Assembly (NCBI GenBank): GCA_945283395.1
Contig: CALYQH010000018.1
Span: 1 to 10,725, forward strand
Origin: an uncultured Ventosimonas sp.
GTDB lineage: Bacteria; Pseudomonadota; Gammaproteobacteria; Pseudomonadales; Pseudomonadaceae
DNA length: 10,725 bases
Direction: 5' to 3'
The position numbers and the translations under genes are program-made. Below are positions 4,191 to 10,725 of this stretch, piece by piece; position 1 is the first letter of the stretch, and every line of letters starts with the position of its first letter. The notes beneath the pieces are model-generated. The model searched no databases, was not told the origin of the DNA, and saw only the letters and a list, made by a program, of their open reading frames with translations.

Positions 4191-4997
4191 TTAACTATTA
4201 GTTAGTTCATTAAATGACCAATTGAAGAGATCACAAGCATTTTTTGAGGAGTGATAAGCAAGCTGTTCGGTAGATATTCCTTTAATTTGAGCTAACTGCT
4301 GGCAAATTTCTGGTAAGTATTCAGGACTATTACGTTGCCCTTGACGAGAAACAGGAGATAGATCAGGAGCGTCAGTTTCTAGGACAATAGCCTCTAAAGG
4401 TAATTGTTTTAAAATTTTATGCATTCTGCGTGCTTGAGGATAAGTACCTGCACCACCTAAGCCTATTTTGAATCCAAGTTTGATATATTCTTTAGCCTCT
4501 TCATAGCTACCGCTAAAAGCATGGACTATTCCACGGTATTTAAACTGATGGTCTTTTAAAGTGGCTATAACATCCGCATGAGCACGCCTCACATGGAGTA
4601 GCACAGGGCGATGAGCGAATGTGGCTAATTCCAGTTGATTATTAAACACCTTTAGTTGCAATTCTTTATCAACATTTGCAATATAGTAATCTAAACCAAT
4701 TTCACCAAAGGCACATAGTTTTTGATCATCTAGTCTTTGTTGGAAGAGTTGCTTTAGTAGGTTTAGAGCTGAAGAAAGCTGATTAGCATCAGAGATATAC
4801 ATAGGATGTATACCACAGGCCATATAAAGCGCTGCATGCTTATCAGCTAGTTGTAATAAGGGATACCATTCAGCAGCAAATACCCCTATCATAATTTGTC
4901 TAACAACACCTTGCTTAATACTCTGGGCTAATATTTGGCTGCGATCTATATCAAATAAAGCGCAGCCCAAATGATTATGAGTATCCACAAGATACAT
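4191..4997 (-). CDS. yjjV: TatD-family metal-dependent hydrolase / DNase, YjjV type
   Basis: The 268-residue product is a complete TatD-family TIM-barrel hydrolase. Metal-binding residues are present in order: the HxH motif in DTHNH (His7, His9), Glu99 in GEIGLDYY, His135 in LLHVRRAH, His159 in IVHAFSGS and Asp209 in LETDAPD. The family are cytoplasmic metal-dependent nucleases, with roles in DNA repair and degradation proposed for TatD itself. The blocks VRRAH, VHAFSGS and KIGLGGAGTYP resemble YjjV more than TatD or YcfH. The ATG is 5 nt after the stop of the helicase-like gene and has no clear Shine-Dalgarno, so it is probably translated by coupling in that transcript. The substrate is not established from sequence. 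Confidence 0.9.
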   Translation of the reverse strand: MYLVDTHNHLGCALFDIDRSQILAQSIKQGVVRQIMIGVFAAEWYPLLQLADKHAALYMACGIHPMYISDANQLSSALNLLKQLFQQRLDDQKLCAFGEIGLDYYIANVDKELQLKVFNNQLELATFAHRPVLLHVRRAHADVIATLKDHQFKYRGIVHAFSGSYEEAKEYIKLGFKIGLGGAGTYPQARRMHKILKQLPLEAIVLETDAPDLSPVSRQGQRNSPEYLPEICQQLAQIKGISTEQLAYHSSKNACDLFNWSFNELTNS

Positions 4998-5002
4998 GGT
5001 TG

Positions 5003-6919
5003 CTATTCGTCATCTAATGTTTTGCGCGATAATAACATGGGTTTTTCTGTTTTAGGAATATGACGATTTGGCAAACTGTCTAAGTTTTCTAAAGTAGGCA
5101 ACCGGTCAACCCTAGAATGCTTTTTATGAATAATAGCAGGTACAGTAGTACTAGTACGTCTGACTGAGAACTCACTAGGACTTCTAATAGGAGTTGGGGT
5201 AGTCACTATGGATGATTTTTCACTATAGTTTGTATTTGCAAAACTAGCATTTCTTATGTTACGTCTATAAAGTGAGTTTCTTGGTCGACGTTGTTCTGTT
5301 TGATGATTTAAGGTATGTGCCTTGGCTGAACGACTAGTTTTAGTTTTAGGTTGATGAGGAGTAGAAGTTTTAGGCGCAGCAAACTCATTGTTAGCTGTTT
5401 TACTGGTGAAACGTTTATTTCTACTGCTTTTTTCCTTGCTTTGATAAGGGCTAATATAATCGACACTATTACCGAAGTTATCATACTCATCATCACGGAA
5501 TTCATCTTCAGGACGATCAGGTGGTAACGTATCCAAGTCAACTAATGGAGTAGTTGTTCTTCTGTGTTTATTATAAGGATTGCGAGTATTTTTGGCTCGA
5601 ACACGGTTGAAAGGAGACTTGGTTGATCTGGTTGTTTTGGGTTCTGATAATATGTCCTCATCAGAGTATGCAGCTTTATTTTCATCTATAATTGATTCAG
5701 TCACTAGTTTTTTCCGAGATTTCCTTCCTACAGCGGGATGGCGGAATATACGTCTAAATCTATCATTACTTTTAGTAGCAGTTTCTTTTTCATCAAAAAT
5801 AAATCCGGACATATCGGCATCAGGGATTTTATACTTGATATAATTCTCTATGACTAACAATAATTTTTCTTCTTCAGGGCTAATAAAAGAAATAGCCTCA
5901 TTTACCTGAATAGTATTAATACGTTGCACATAGTCATCTTCTATATAGGGTAGGTCAAAATTAATAATACAAGGTATACTGCTAATATCTAAGCTATCTA
6001 TAGCGACATCTGTGACAATTAGAACTTGGATTCGTTGTTCTTGCAAATCGGCTAATGTTTTATTTCTACTATTAGGTGCTTTACTAGGGTAGATACTATT
6101 AGTGCTAATACCTTTTCTGTTTAGATAACCAGCTAATCTACTAGCTCCATATTTAGTTCTGGTAAAGACAAGTAACTGTGACCATTTATAGGTATTAATT
6201 AGATGGACCAGCAAAGCTGATTTTTGTCTTGTGGGAATGGAATAAACACATTGCTTAATGTGCTCAATAGATGGTGTAACAGTAATTTCAATACGTTCAG
6301 GGGTCTTTAATAAGAAATGTGCGGCAACTATTACATCATCAGTGAAGGAAGTTGCATATAAAAGCGTTTGGCGAGTTGCTGGTAGCTTTTCAACCACTTG
6401 CTTGGTGGAACTATTAAACTCGTTATTAGTTAATAATTCTGCTTCATCTAATACTAACAGTTGGATCTGAGTTAAATCAATAGCGTCTTGATTCATTAAT
6501 TCAACTAGACGAGTGGGGGAGGCTATAAGGACATCAACGCCTCTACCTAATATTTTTATTTGTGGAATGATACTAACATTATCTAATATACAGGCAGTTG
6601 TTAAAGAAAAATCTAAGGAACAAGCATTAAAAAAGTCAGTAATTTGAATAGCTTCATCTTGATTGATAACTAAGATAAGTACACGTGCTTGTTTAGCAAC
6701 TAGTGGCTGCGCTGTTATGTTTCCCTTTGGAAATAATTTTTCAATAATAGCAGAAGCAAAGCTAACAATCTTCCCAGTACCTGTAGGAGTAGCAACCATA
6801 AGATCATTATTCTGTAAAATAATGGGTATAGCCTGTTCTTGTAATGAGGTTGGTGTATCGTATAAAGCTTTAATTGTATCTGATAATAAATCTGAAAGTC
6901 CCAGAGCTGTAAAGGACAT
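5003..6919 (-). CDS. rhlE: RhlE-like DEAD-box protein with degenerate helicase motifs
   Basis: This 638-residue protein has the fold and spacer sequences of the long pseudomonad RhlE RNA helicases, from MSF.LGLS at the start to PMLLSRK near the end. The start is the ATG at 6919, which has AGGA upstream and this family N-terminus. The frame remains open to an ATG at 6991, but those 24 residues are not family-like. The Q motif is kept (TPTSLQ, 22-27), and motif IV, LVFTRTK, is intact (250-256). The catalytic motifs are not: motif I ends GKI instead of GKT (49-51), Ia has INQDEA in place of PTRELA, II is DEAE (158-161), III is YAT (188-190), V reads TDVAIDSLDI, and VI keeps only QRI (332-334) and loses the GRTGR arginines through a gap of about 4 residues. 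The basic, Ser/Thr/Arg-rich tail (about 351-638) has an acidic block near 461-493. ATP-driven unwinding is unlikely; a binding or scaffold role is my inference. The metF gene lies upstream. Confidence 0.9.
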   Translation of the reverse strand: MSFTALGLSDLLSDTIKALYDTPTSLQEQAIPIILQNNDLMVATPTGTGKIVSFASAIIEKLFPKGNITAQPLVAKQARVLILVINQDEAIQITDFFNACSLDFSLTTACILDNVSIIPQIKILGRGVDVLIASPTRLVELMNQDAIDLTQIQLLVLDEAELLTNNEFNSSTKQVVEKLPATRQTLLYATSFTDDVIVAAHFLLKTPERIEITVTPSIEHIKQCVYSIPTRQKSALLVHLINTYKWSQLLVFTRTKYGASRLAGYLNRKGISTNSIYPSKAPNSRNKTLADLQEQRIQVLIVTDVAIDSLDISSIPCIINFDLPYIEDDYVQRINTIQVNEAISFISPEEEKLLLVIENYIKYKIPDADMSGFIFDEKETATKSNDRFRRIFRHPAVGRKSRKKLVTESIIDENKAAYSDEDILSEPKTTRSTKSPFNRVRAKNTRNPYNKHRRTTTPLVDLDTLPPDRPEDEFRDDEYDNFGNSVDYISPYQSKEKSSRNKRFTSKTANNEFAAPKTSTPHQPKTKTSRSAKAHTLNHQTEQRRPRNSLYRRNIRNASFANTNYSEKSSIVTTPTPIRSPSEFSVRRTSTTVPAIIHKKHSRVDRLPTLENLDSLPNRHIPKTEKPMLLSRKTLDDE

Positions 6920-7142: not shown

Positions 7143-7994
7143 TTACCCTTGTAAATTATTCCAAATTGCAAGACTAGGTTCAGCTTGATTTAATGTATAG
7201 AAGTGTAAACCAGGCGCTCCACCCAATAATAATTCTTCACAAAGTCGCGTTATAACTTCTGTTCCAAAGGCTTGAATACTTTTAATATCGTCGCCATAAG
7301 CTTCTAGTTGTTTGCGGATCCAACGAGGTAATTCGGCACCACAAGCATCAGAAAAACGTGCAAATTTGCTATAATTAGTAATAGGCATAATTCCTGGGAT
7401 GATAGGAATATTTATCCCCATCTTTTGTACACGTTCAACAAAATAAAAGTAACTATCAGCATTGAAGAAGTATTGGGTAATAGCACTATTTGCACCAGCT
7501 TTTACTTTATTTACAAAATATTTTAAGTCATTTTCCATACTTGTGGCTTGCGGATGGACTTCTGGATAGGCTGCAACTTCTATATGAAACTGCTCAGTAG
7601 TTTGTTCTCTAATAAAGCTTACAAGATCGGCAGCATAACGTAATTCTCCGGTAGCCATGCCCATCCCTGAGGGTAAATCGCCTCGTAAAGCAACAATTCG
7701 TTTGATTCCCTGTTGTTGATAAACATCAAGTAACGATTTAATAGCATCTTTACTGTCACCAACACAGGAAAGATGTGGAGCGGTAGCTGTATTTGTGGCG
7801 TGGAAAATTTGTAAAACAGTATTTAATGTCCTATCTTTAGTAGAACCTCCTGCTCCATAGGTACAGGAAAAGAACACAGGATTACAGGCAATTTGTAATT
7901 GTTTAGCTACTATTAGTAACTTCTCAGCGCCTATCTCAGTTTTAGTAGGAAAAAACTCAAAGCTAATGGATTTGTTAGTTAATTTCATAATCAA
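7143..7994 (-). CDS. metF: 5,10-methylenetetrahydrofolate reductase
   Basis: MetF is a cytoplasmic flavoprotein that reduces 5,10-methylene-THF to 5-methyl-THF, the methyl donor for remaking methionine from homocysteine. Counting from the ATG at 7988 (281 residues), the family blocks are SFEFFPTKT at 8-16 with catalytic Glu11, SCTYGAGGSTKDRT at 41-54, ALRGD at 100-104 and TQYFFN at 171-176. The length is normal for a bacterial MetF. Start choice is uncertain. The only good Shine-Dalgarno (AAGGAG, 8008-8013) is 19 nt from the ATG but about 13 nt from a TTG at 7994, so I give the longer frame of 283 residues. That Shine-Dalgarno is buried in a hairpin. The gene lies 46 nt behind ahcY and probably shares its riboswitch-controlled transcript. 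Confidence 0.95.
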   Translation of the reverse strand: MIMKLTNKSISFEFFPTKTEIGAEKLLIVAKQLQIACNPVFFSCTYGAGGSTKDRTLNTVLQIFHATNTATAPHLSCVGDSKDAIKSLLDVYQQQGIKRIVALRGDLPSGMGMATGELRYAADLVSFIREQTTEQFHIEVAAYPEVHPQATSMENDLKYFVNKVKAGANSAITQYFFNADSYFYFVERVQKMGINIPIIPGIMPITNYSKFARFSDACGAELPRWIRKQLEAYGDDIKSIQAFGTEVITRLCEELLLGGAPGLHFYTLNQAEPSLAIWNNLQG

Positions 7995-8040: not shown

Positions 8041-9438
8041 TTAATAACGGTAAGTATCTGGTTTAAATGGGCCTTCAACAGGAACATCAATATATTCGGC
8101 TTGTTGAGGTGTCAATCTAGTAATTACACCAGCAAATCCTTTGACCATTTCTGTAGCGACTTCTTCATCTAATTTTTTAGGTAGTACTTCCACTCTTAAT
8201 AGTTTTGCTTTTTGTTCATTAGTTAAAGTAGCATATTTTTGTTGATAGAGATGAATTTGTGCTAACACTTGATTAGCGAAAGAGCCATCCATAACACGAC
8301 TTGGATGGCCTGTAGCATTACCTAGATTAACTAAACGTCCTTCCGATAATAGTATTAAATAATCATCATTATCTGCTTCAAACCTGTCTTTACCGGTTCT
8401 GTGTACCTTATGTACTTGAGGTTTAACTTCTTCCCAAGCCCAGTTTTGGCGCATAAAAGCAGTATCAATTTCATGATCGAAATGCCCTATATTACAAACA
8501 ATAGCACGTTTCTTAAGGGCTTTCAGCATAGGTGCGTCACATACATTGATATTACCAGTAGTAGTAACTACTAAATCAATCTTTTGTAGAAGCTCCTTAT
8601 TAATACATTGGTCGGAACCGTCATTAACACCATTTATATAAGGGGAAACTACTTCATAGCCATCCATACAAGCTTGCATAGCACAGATAGGATCAACTTC
8701 TGTAACCTTTACGATCATGCTTTCTTGGCGTAAAGATTGGGCTGAACCTTTGCCTACATCGCCATAACCTATAACTAGTGCTTGTTTACCTGATAAAAGA
8801 TGATCGGTAGCGCGTTTGATCGCATCATTGAGACTATGACGGCAGCCATATTTATTGTCGTTTTTGCTTTTAGTAACCGAATCATTAACATTAATAGCAG
8901 GCACTTTCAAAGTACCCTTCTTCCACATTTCTAACAAACGATGAACGCCTGTGGTAGTTTCTTCGGTTATGCCATGGATATGAGTTAGCATCTCTGGATA
9001 TTTGTTATGTAAAACAGCGGTTAAATCCCCTCCGTCATCAAGTATCATGTTAGCATCCCAAGGTTTGCCTTGTTGGAGAATAGTTTGTTCGATACACCAT
9101 TCATATTCTTGTTCAGTTTCCCCCTTCCAAGCAAAAACGGGAATGCCCGCTGCGGCAATGGCAGCAGCAGCTTGATCTTGGGTTGAGAAAATATTGCAAG
9201 ATGACCAACGTACTTCAGCCCCTAAACTAACTAAAGTTTCAATGAGTACTGCTGTTTGAATTGTCATATGGATGCAACCAAGAATTTTTGCACCTGCTAA
9301 CGGTTTTTTAGCTGCATATTTACGACGTAGGCTCATTAGGGCTGGCATTTCTGATTCGGCAATGACAATCTCACGGCGTCCCCAATCAGCTAAGGAAATA
9401 TCAGCTACTTTATAATCGGTAAAATTTGTAACACTCAT
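8041..9438 (-). CDS. ahcY: S-adenosylhomocysteine hydrolase (adenosylhomocysteinase)
   Basis: AhcY is a cytoplasmic NAD-dependent enzyme that splits S-adenosylhomocysteine into homocysteine and adenosine, removing the product inhibitor of methyltransferases. The start is the ATG at 9438, because GGAG lies 6 nt upstream. The earlier in-frame ATG at 9450 has no Shine-Dalgarno and sits in the leader. The 465-residue product shows GCIHMT at 54-59, EETTTG at 159-164, the catalytic stretch [10 protein letters not shown] at 186-195 (Lys190 and Asp194 by family alignment), the NAD-binding GYGDVGKG at 224-231 and the C-terminal FKPDTYRY. The roughly 40-residue insertion of the long bacterial form is present. 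Residues match pseudomonad AhcY very closely. Control is by the SAH riboswitch upstream, and metF follows. Confidence 0.98.
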
Positions 9439-9450
9439 ATTAGACTCCAT

Positions 9451-9520: not shown

Positions 9521-9540
9521 GTTTCTAGTTTAAGTTTATA

Positions 9541-9626
9541 TGAGCGCCGTTCTAAGCAAGCTATCTATCATAGATAATTGCACTAATCGAGCCTGACAAC
9601 TAGGATGTTGCTGCAACGCTCCTCGG
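9541..9626 (-). ncRNA. S-adenosylhomocysteine (SAH) riboswitch
   Basis: The - strand leader of ahcY carries the three conserved blocks of the SAH riboswitch in order: CCGAGGAGCGTTGC at the 5' end, CAGGCTCG in the middle and AACGGCGCTCA at the 3' end. P1 is GAGCG (9621-9617) with CGCTC (9546-9542). The P2 hairpin is CAAC (9610-9607) with GTTG (9600-9597). The pseudoknot is CGAG (9625-9622) with CTCG (9591-9588). A variable 6-bp hairpin occupies 9576-9562. The class binds SAH and raises expression when SAH accumulates. Its position about 100 nt ahead of ahcY, with metF next, is the known genomic context. I recognised this from its sequence blocks and did not score it against a model. Confidence 0.93.
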
Positions 9627-9648
9627 TTCGCATTATAAATGCTTGCCA

Positions 9649-9780: not shown

Positions 9781-10191
9781 TTAAACGTTTTCTTCTAACA
9801 TAGGTAGTTGCATACGAGCTTTAGTCAGAGCCATACCAAGATTAGCACTTTTACGACAAACGAAACAAATAATATAGTCAGGATAACGTTTCCCACGCAT
9901 AAAGATATGAAGTAGGTTTTCACTATTTACTATGATTTCTTGAAAGTAGTGGGCATTAGCATCAGGAGGTAAGCCACGTGCTTTTCTGAATAATTGCTCA
10001 ATCATTGAAACATTAGGGCCTTGAAAGATATCGGCAGTAGCGGCAGCCACTAAATCTAATACTTCCCTAGGATGTGAATCTATAGTTTTGACAGAAAGTA
10101 GCATTCCTGAACTAACATCAACATATCCTGCTGCTAGACATTCAGGGATAGAACTAATCGCGGTTTGTATAGCTTGATCTAAATTAGCCAT
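9781..10191 (-). CDS. Small conserved protein, roadblock/LC7-like
   Basis: The 136-residue soluble protein has no signal peptide or membrane segment. The opening helix (LDQAIQTAISSIPE), then a strand pair around GYVDVSSGMLL (22-32), and a C-terminal strand-helix ending NLGMALTKAR resemble the layout of roadblock/LC7 proteins. This family acts as dimeric regulators of small GTPases and of motility or polarity systems in bacteria. The similarity is judged by eye and is modest; the safe description is a conserved protein of unknown function. The start is well supported: ATG with AAGGA 7 nt upstream. It has its own promoter, a phosphatase gene upstream and a perfect inverted repeat at its 3' end, so it is probably a single-gene transcript. 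There is no GTPase gene next to it in this window. Confidence 0.8.
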   Translation of the reverse strand: MANLDQAIQTAISSIPECLAAGYVDVSSGMLLSVKTIDSHPREVLDLVAAATADIFQGPNVSMIEQLFRKARGLPPDANAHYFQEIIVNSENLLHIFMRGKRYPDYIICFVCRKSANLGMALTKARMQLPMLEENV

Positions 10192-10331: not shown

Positions 10332-10725
10332 CTAGGTGGCTCTAATTAAGATATTTTCTTCTAATGCATATAGCAAGTCTTCTTGTTCTTTAGATTGTAC
10401 GTAACCTGCATCTATTTGACGTAGACGTTTTAGGGTTTCTTCCGCAGTTAATCCTTTTTTGATTAACCAGGCACCTAATACTGTACCCGTTCTTCCAAGC
10501 CCAGCAAGGCAGTGTACAGCAAGAACATCACCCTTTGCTAATAATTTATCAATTTGCACTAATAGCATTTTTATCCACATAATGGGTGGTGCACGTCTGT
10601 CCTCAATTTTAAATTGAACGCTACGCATGTTATATTGAGACAATATATCAGTAGGTAATTCTCTATCAGTTAAGTTAACAAGTACGGTTACGCCTACATC
10701 TCTCAATGCAGCTAAATCATATTCT
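10332..10725 (-). CDS. Dual-specificity-type protein phosphatase (5' end outside window)
   Basis: The frame is open from the window's right edge to a TAG at 10334-10332, showing 130 residues of a cysteine-dependent phosphatase. The signature HCxxGxxRTG is present as HCLAGLGRTG, with nucleophile Cys at codon 10511-10509 and the phosphate-binding Arg six residues later. An IEDRRAP segment about 30 residues before it supplies the likely general-acid Asp. The order VTVLVNLTDRELP, then acid loop, then P-loop, then a helical C-terminus matches compact dual-specificity or CDKN3-like phosphatases. The family removes phosphate from Tyr/Ser/Thr or from non-protein substrates; the target here is unknown. 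A TTG at 10706 is not a believable start, because family-like sequence (EYDLAALRDVG) continues past it to the edge. No membrane segment is visible. Confidence 0.88.
   Translation of the reverse strand, partial: EYDLAALRDVGVTVLVNLTDRELPTDILSQYNMRSVQFKIEDRRAPPIMWIKMLLVQIDKLLAKGDVLAVHCLAGLGRTGTVLGAWLIKKGLTAEETLKRLRQIDAGYVQSKEQEDLLYALEENILIRAT

Follow-up and report, generated by a model that had tools for sequence, protein, structure and literature searches.

The window analyzed here is a 10,725-nucleotide stretch of contig CALYQH010000018.1, and the subject of this study is an rhlE2-type gene at 5003-6919 on its minus strand, which encodes a very probably catalytically degenerate DEAD-box protein of 638 codons plus a stop. 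The frame is unbroken from ATG to stop, as had been stated, with no strand given, in an earlier interpretation made from the letters alone (hereafter the sequence-only reading), and both helicase halves of the protein are matched by Pfam. The best of the 13 NCBIfam models matched is RhlE2 (NF053710), with a full-length match spanning positions 1-633 of the 635 in the model, but the score of 512.6 bits falls short of the curated cut-off of 925 bits. The window genome (1.85 Mb, 358 contigs, 78% complete) appears to be of Entomomonas type, judging from the likeness of its protein to P0005, the nearest named protein relative (a protein of genome G002, labelled Entomomonas asaccharolytica), and from the kinship labels of the genome set. 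Entomomonas, placed within Pseudomonadaceae, is described as an insect-gut genus, and three other genomes of the genus (G001-G003) are listed as complete. Upstream of the rhlE2-type gene lie metF (7143-7988, minus strand) and then ahcY (8041-9450, minus strand); this ahcY-metF-rhlE2 order is common to the window and to all four Pseudomonas/Stutzerimonas loci examined, which were picked from 21 retrieved. The same position next to metF and ahcY is found in the three other loci of the genus, where the whole block from ileS to a phosphatase gene is also conserved. By its position, the rhlE2-type gene is orthologous to Pseudomonas RhlE2.

Roles are well established for the single motif residues of DEAD-box enzymes, and most of these motifs are broken in the window protein when it is aligned to canonical RhlE2 relatives (all coordinates that follow are on the minus strand). 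Motif I reads ATPTGTGKI in place of AAQTGTGKT (6767-6793), with its Lys kept and its Thr lost; motif Ia reads INQDEA in place of PTRELA (6650-6667); the GG motif is lost and now reads DN (6578-6583); motif II is DEAE rather than DEAD (6437-6448), the Walker-B Asp-Glu being kept; motif V is VTDVAIDSLDI rather than ATDIAARGLDI (5984-6016), its Arg now being Asp; and motif VI is YVQRINTI where canonical proteins have YVHRIGRTGRAG (5909-5932). The alignment bears out these changes as the sequence-only reading had listed them (GKT to GKI, PTRELA to INQDEA, GG to DN, DEAD to DEAE, ARGLDI to IDSLDI and HRIGRTGRAG to QRINTI). For motif Ib (6509-6520), where TPGR to SPTR had been proposed, SPTR is indeed present with its Arg kept, but the canonical form in the relatives is CPGR, with Cys and not Thr. 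Motif III had been given as SAT to YAT, but the alignment without gaps yields ATS (6347-6355). The general claim that the catalytic motifs are lost therefore needs qualification, because the protein retains the Q-motif Gln, the Walker-A Lys, the Walker-B Asp-Glu, motif IV and the Arg of motif Ib.

It had also been thought that the protein closely follows the RhlE framework between the motifs and that its losses fall at the invariant motif positions. The first idea is half right and the second does not hold, the losses being equally frequent outside the motifs. A total of 248 core positions do not vary across at least 102 of the 103 canonical proteins, 80 of them inside motifs and 168 outside. 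The window protein keeps 40/80 of the former and 91/168 of the latter (p 0.59), so a concentration of losses at the motifs was rejected as phrased. By comparison, of two active-type paralogues in the same genome, the DeaD protein keeps 61/80 motif and 80/168 non-motif positions, and RhlB keeps 59/80 and 62/168. The special protection of the motifs is what disappeared.

The same state is found throughout a family of 17 protein clusters, at 45-99% identity and including the window's own cluster P0001, that was obtained from a search of 5.8 billion proteins. Beyond these clusters the database matches drop to Pseudomonas RhlE proteins, with a gap in the profile search from 869 bits for the 17th cluster to 544 bits for the next match, and no intermediates between the family and canonical proteins occur among the best 120 matches listed in the protein database. 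The motif I Thr is kept in 1/17 clusters and the GKT string in none; the motif Ia Arg, the motif Ib Gly and the GG pair are each kept in 0/17; a full DEAD is present in 1/17; and motif III retains its Ser in one cluster, its Thr in one and SAT in none, the lone SAT string counted in the family lying by chance in the P0005 tail. The motif V Arg is kept nowhere (Glu in 11, Asp in 4, Gln in 1, Pro in 1), and neither are the His and the second and third Arg of motif VI or the string HRIGRTGR (each 0/17). Retained are the Q-motif Gln (17/17), the Walker-A Lys (16/17), the Walker-B Asp (17/17) and Glu (16/17), the motif Ib Arg (17/17) and the first motif VI Arg (17/17). Within the family, freer variation of the former motif columns than of other columns is only a trend (p 0.08). 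Sequencing or assembly error was considered and rejected as unlikely, because a single-contig genome of the genus, G002, and other clusters show identical losses, and the other genus genomes agree.

Outside the family, the motif positions are intact in all of the next-best 103 canonical relatives, save for DEAA in P0105. Direct reading of 36 Pseudomonadaceae genomes gave degenerate forms in the four of this genus and canonical forms in the 32 of other genera. No further pseudo forms were indicated among 398 Pseudomonadaceae genomes, most of them compared by score alone: scores of 3.3e-236 or lower are confined to the four genus members, the genome that follows is at 7.4e-126, three genomes have no match at 1e-60 and a few have weak ones (about 1e-61 to 1e-65).

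The order of the losses may be glimpsed in two members of the family. The last Asp of DEAD is kept in 2/17 clusters, P0008 and P0017, and P0008 also retains the motif I Thr; because of this, the losses probably began with the coupling motifs and arginine fingers, with the proviso that the branching of P0008 and P0017 is weakly supported (81/19) and that P0017 is a long branch. P0008 has also changed its Walker-A Lys to Glu and DEAD to DQAD, losing both the Walker-A Lys and the Walker-B Glu, so that its route to a dead site differs from that of the rest of the family; its early branching is weakly supported.

A tree of 56 rows sets the 21 degenerate ones apart by a single branch (support 100/100 and present in all 200 bootstrap trees), and their stem is 2.34 changes per column long; this tree includes the motif columns, P0017 again stands on a long branch and eight degenerate rows are of unlike amino-acid composition. 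The motif loss had one origin, before the sampled family members split. Identity between the window genes and those of the Pseudomonas/Stutzerimonas loci is 69-75% for metF and 81-84% for ahcY but 37-40% for the best rhlE2 piece, which implies that rhlE2 changed much faster than its neighbors between this genus and Pseudomonas. Within the genus its identity is ordinary (60-62%, versus 62-69% for tatD and 58-64% for fkpB). Core identity to the 103 canonical relatives is 45%, compared with 86% between canonical P0018 and the other canonical ones.

Selection was estimated from the pair G002-G003 (dS 0.72), the other five genus pairs, including those of the window with the other genomes, having been excluded for saturated or near-saturated synonymous sites. 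For this one usable pair, core dN/dS is 0.039 (95% interval 0.021-0.064), far below 1, and a likelihood ratio of 240 against dN/dS = 1 speaks against a decaying gene; the tail gives 0.090 (0.054-0.148). Ten canonical RhlE2 pairs have core values of 0.007-0.036, and the core interval overlaps most, though not all, of theirs (that of G024-G008 is 0.0022-0.0181). The paralogues of the same two genomes yield 0.015 for DeaD, 0.013 for RhlB and 0.042 for the SrmB type. Moreover, 34 core positions that are the same in at least 100 of the 103 canonical proteins now carry a different residue, shared by at least 16 of the 17 family members, a sign of re-purposing and not of mere relaxation. The single origin was followed by renewed constraint on the rhlE2-type core.

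At the structural level, both RecA-like domains are predicted by AlphaFold to fold, with fold matches for domain 1 (about residues 1-210; 6290-6919, minus strand) and domain 2 (about residues 215-371; 5807-6277, minus strand), and their two-domain arrangement is retained in the model. Directly after the core comes an almost invariant basic block, RFRRIFRHPAVGRKSRK (residues 387-403; 5711-5761, minus strand), which varies between R and K at a single position and is present in 17/17 family clusters and 0/103 canonical proteins. It is intact even in P0017, which is 45% identical to the window protein, occurs once in each of the four genus genomes and has no match in the PDB. A search of the protein database with this region gave eight candidates, of which three were significant and all belonged to this family; the search missed 14 of the 17 known holders and is thus weak on absence elsewhere. 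The block appears to be new in this family compared with canonical RhlE2. Two other parts of the tail are old by alignment: the block DEFRDDEYDNFGNSVDYISPYQ (residues 472-493; 5441-5506, minus strand), whose DNFGN core is common to canonical RhlE2 (17/17 family, 103/103 canonical), and the C-terminal block ...RLPTLENLDS...EKPMLLSRK (residues 599-633; 5021-5125, minus strand), also common to canonical RhlE2, in which EKPxLL[ST]R is present in 17/17 family and 100/103 canonical proteins. Mean conservation is 0.80 in the core versus 0.69 in the tail, but the top two conserved 17-residue stretches of the whole protein, DEFRDDEYDNFGNSVDY (472-488) and RFRRIFRHPAVGRKSRK, sit in the disordered tail and exceed any core stretch.

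The remaining DEAD-box proteins of the genus are orthodox. DeaD/CsdA, RhlB and SrmB types are present in all four genus genomes and DbpA in two (seen in G001 and G003, none seen in G002 or in the incomplete G000). These type names were checked by NCBIfam on the matched pieces, none of which is best with the RhlE1 or RhlE2 models; the RhlB and DbpA pieces pass the cut-offs and the DeaD and SrmB pieces fall below them. All 14 carry GKT, a DExD motif II, SAT, the motif V Arg and HR[IV]GRTGR, with departures limited to DEVD or DETD in three SrmB types and to PTRELV and RGIHI in the four RhlB proteins. A second RhlE, RhlE1 included, whose presence the sequence-only reading had proposed to look for, was not found in any of the four genus genomes searched, the window's own being 78% complete, and a duplication leaving an intact copy elsewhere was rejected, none having been found among their DEAD-box proteins. 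RNase E is encoded in 4/4 genus genomes, so that the expected tail partner is present, and in each of them its C-terminal part reads as a membrane-segment-like helix, an AR1-like arginine stretch and an NDPR motif.

Several further observations concern the neighborhood of the gene. Its stop is separated by 5 bases (4998-5002) from the start of tatD (4191-4997, minus strand), which is the next gene in 4/4 genus loci, and this arrangement suggests one transcript. Rfam has no match at the rhlE2-type gene itself. Directly upstream of ahcY there is an SAH riboswitch (RF01057, 48.3 bits; 9535-9630, minus strand), as expected for the control of SAH hydrolase. Farther upstream, 9781-10191 (minus strand) encodes a 136-aa protein that is matched by neither Pfam (E 0.001) nor NCBIfam (E 0.1) and shows 93-97% identity to its counterparts in the other three genomes of the genus, above ileS (85-87%). 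It adjoins, in 4/4 genus loci, a gene for a dual-specificity-type protein phosphatase (10332-10706, minus strand), which is cut here by the window end.

Comparison among relatives establishes the motif loss, its single origin, selection on core and tail, and the conservation of the tail. The protein is very probably a true bacterial DEAD-box pseudohelicase, and its residues suggest that ATPase and unwinding activities would be absent. The sequence-only reading had arrived at a probable pseudo-helicase, and this view is strengthened by losses in 17/17 clusters, canonical motifs in 103 relatives and the core dN/dS; the orthologues in the three sister genomes, a comparison it had called for, carry the losses with no internal stop. 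The rival it had raised, that a gene recently released from selection is decaying, could account for the large divergence from canonical RhlE2 but is contradicted by intact frames in 4/4 genus genomes, a single old origin, a dN/dS far from 1 and a position conserved in 4/4 genus loci, and is hardly credible. A catalytically active enzyme with an unorthodox active site is very improbable: the Walker-A Lys and Walker-B Glu are kept in 16/17 and the two-domain arrangement is preserved in the AlphaFold model, but all 17 clusters have a broken motif Ia, GG and motif III and have lost the motif V Arg and the second and third motif VI Arg, the replacements differ by lineage and motif positions are retained no better than others. 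Function could alternatively reside in the disordered tail alone, the core being a passive remnant tolerated as a spacer. The two best-conserved stretches do sit in the tail, and the C-terminal region of P. aeruginosa RhlE2 is reported to be enough for RNase E binding (PMC11964227). However, core dN/dS is lower than that of the tail, with an interval overlapping most canonical RhlE2 cores, 34 core positions were re-fixed, mean conservation is higher in the core and both domains are predicted to fold, all of which makes a passive core decidedly doubtful. Unlikely too, if less so, is a nucleotide-gated clamp, in which the core would bind ATP or ADP without hydrolysis and, through this nucleotide, keep its grip on RNA or a partner. 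In its favor are the near-universal Q-motif Gln, Walker-A Lys and Walker-B Asp and Glu and a largely retained motif IV (0.90 of cells), but the motif I Thr is lost in 16/17, the motif V Arg is acidic in 15/17, the second and third motif VI Arg, motif Ia and the GG pair are lost in 17/17, and P0008 lacks both the Walker-A Lys and the Walker-B Glu.

On balance we favor a pseudohelicase that probably serves as an RNA- and RNase E-binding adaptor with a non-catalytic core. The RhlE2 of Entomomonas lost, on a single occasion, the motifs on which RNA-dependent ATPase and unwinding rely, and was re-fixed across the sampled genus as a folded, probably non-catalytic protein, in which the two RecA-like domains would form a folded platform and the disordered tail, made of the old RhlE2 blocks (DNFGN, EKPxLLSR) and the gained basic block, would tether the protein to RNA and RNase E. 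Acting as an adaptor or a brake and doing no unwinding of its own, it could position RNA, RNase E or an active helicase (RhlB, DeaD). The binding partners and the role of the new block are ones that we infer; the retained RhlE2 tail and the newly fixed basic block agree with the RNA or protein binding that was suggested earlier. More tentatively, and with somewhat less than even odds, a helicase of RNA decay may within a single genus have become an RNase E/RNA adaptor of purely non-enzymatic kind; the 17-residue RFRRIFRHPAVGRKSRK would then be a newly arisen binding motif, fixed in the very clade in which catalysis was lost. Several points weigh against the favored interpretation. The clusters are predicted proteins, hence broken copies would go unlisted; the core dN/dS is the highest of eleven RhlE2 pairs and comes from one genome pair with unsaturated dS; and nucleotide binding may be possible because the Q-motif Gln, Walker-A Lys and Walker-B Glu are retained. 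RNase E binding is transferred by analogy from P. aeruginosa RhlE2 to the Entomomonas protein, where any of the tail blocks may be the one that binds, and the new block has no known counterpart. In P. aeruginosa, moreover, the RhlE2-RNase E interaction is RNA-dependent and RhlE2 is not counted among the core parts of the degradosome.

Pseudohelicases are already known, and a bacterial DEAD-box case would be a new variant. The Entomomonas protein resembles Pseudomonas RhlE2 (PA0428; NF053710) in its full-length model match, gene order and tail blocks, and differs in its score (512.6 versus the cut-off of 925), its broken ATPase, coupling and RNA motifs and its extra basic block after the core. 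PriA of Deinococcus radiodurans is likewise a bacterial helicase orthologue with motifs unconserved in one lineage, a pseudohelicase shown to lack ATPase and unwinding while keeping DNA and DnaB binding, but it is a DNA replication-restart helicase and not a DEAD-box RNA helicase, and its inactivity was demonstrated experimentally (PMC4504706). Yeast Utp25 is described as a DEAD-box-like pseudohelicase with a two-RecA fold, vestigial motifs and a conserved role; it is a eukaryotic ribosome-assembly factor of limited sequence similarity to helicases (PMC9539457). The Entomomonas protein, in comparison, still has 45% core identity to its canonical relatives. It combines lost catalytic motifs with a fold kept by prediction and with selection, measured in one genome pair, and of the hallmarks of active DEAD-box enzymes it has the two RecA-like domains and the Q-motif Gln, but not the canonical motifs I, II, III and VI or the motif V Arg. 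In the part of the open-licence full-text literature covered, neither a bacterial DEAD-box pseudohelicase nor a study of an Entomomonas helicase was found among the matches listed, which in two cases were the top 20 of 2,827 and 30 of 371 papers.

As long as the enzyme is active, it is difficult to tell how much of a DEAD-box protein's part in RNA decay depends on ATP. Evolution may have performed the experiment in this genus, as the sole RhlE found in the searched genomes keeps its RhlE2 tail and its predicted fold, under strong selection, after loss of the motor. The automatic annotation "DEAD/DEAH box helicase" is given here to a protein in which helicase activity is very probably lacking. 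If the conversion into a purely non-enzymatic adaptor is real, nature would have provided in the Entomomonas protein a separation-of-function form of RhlE2 as well as a DEAD-box pseudohelicase of bacteria.
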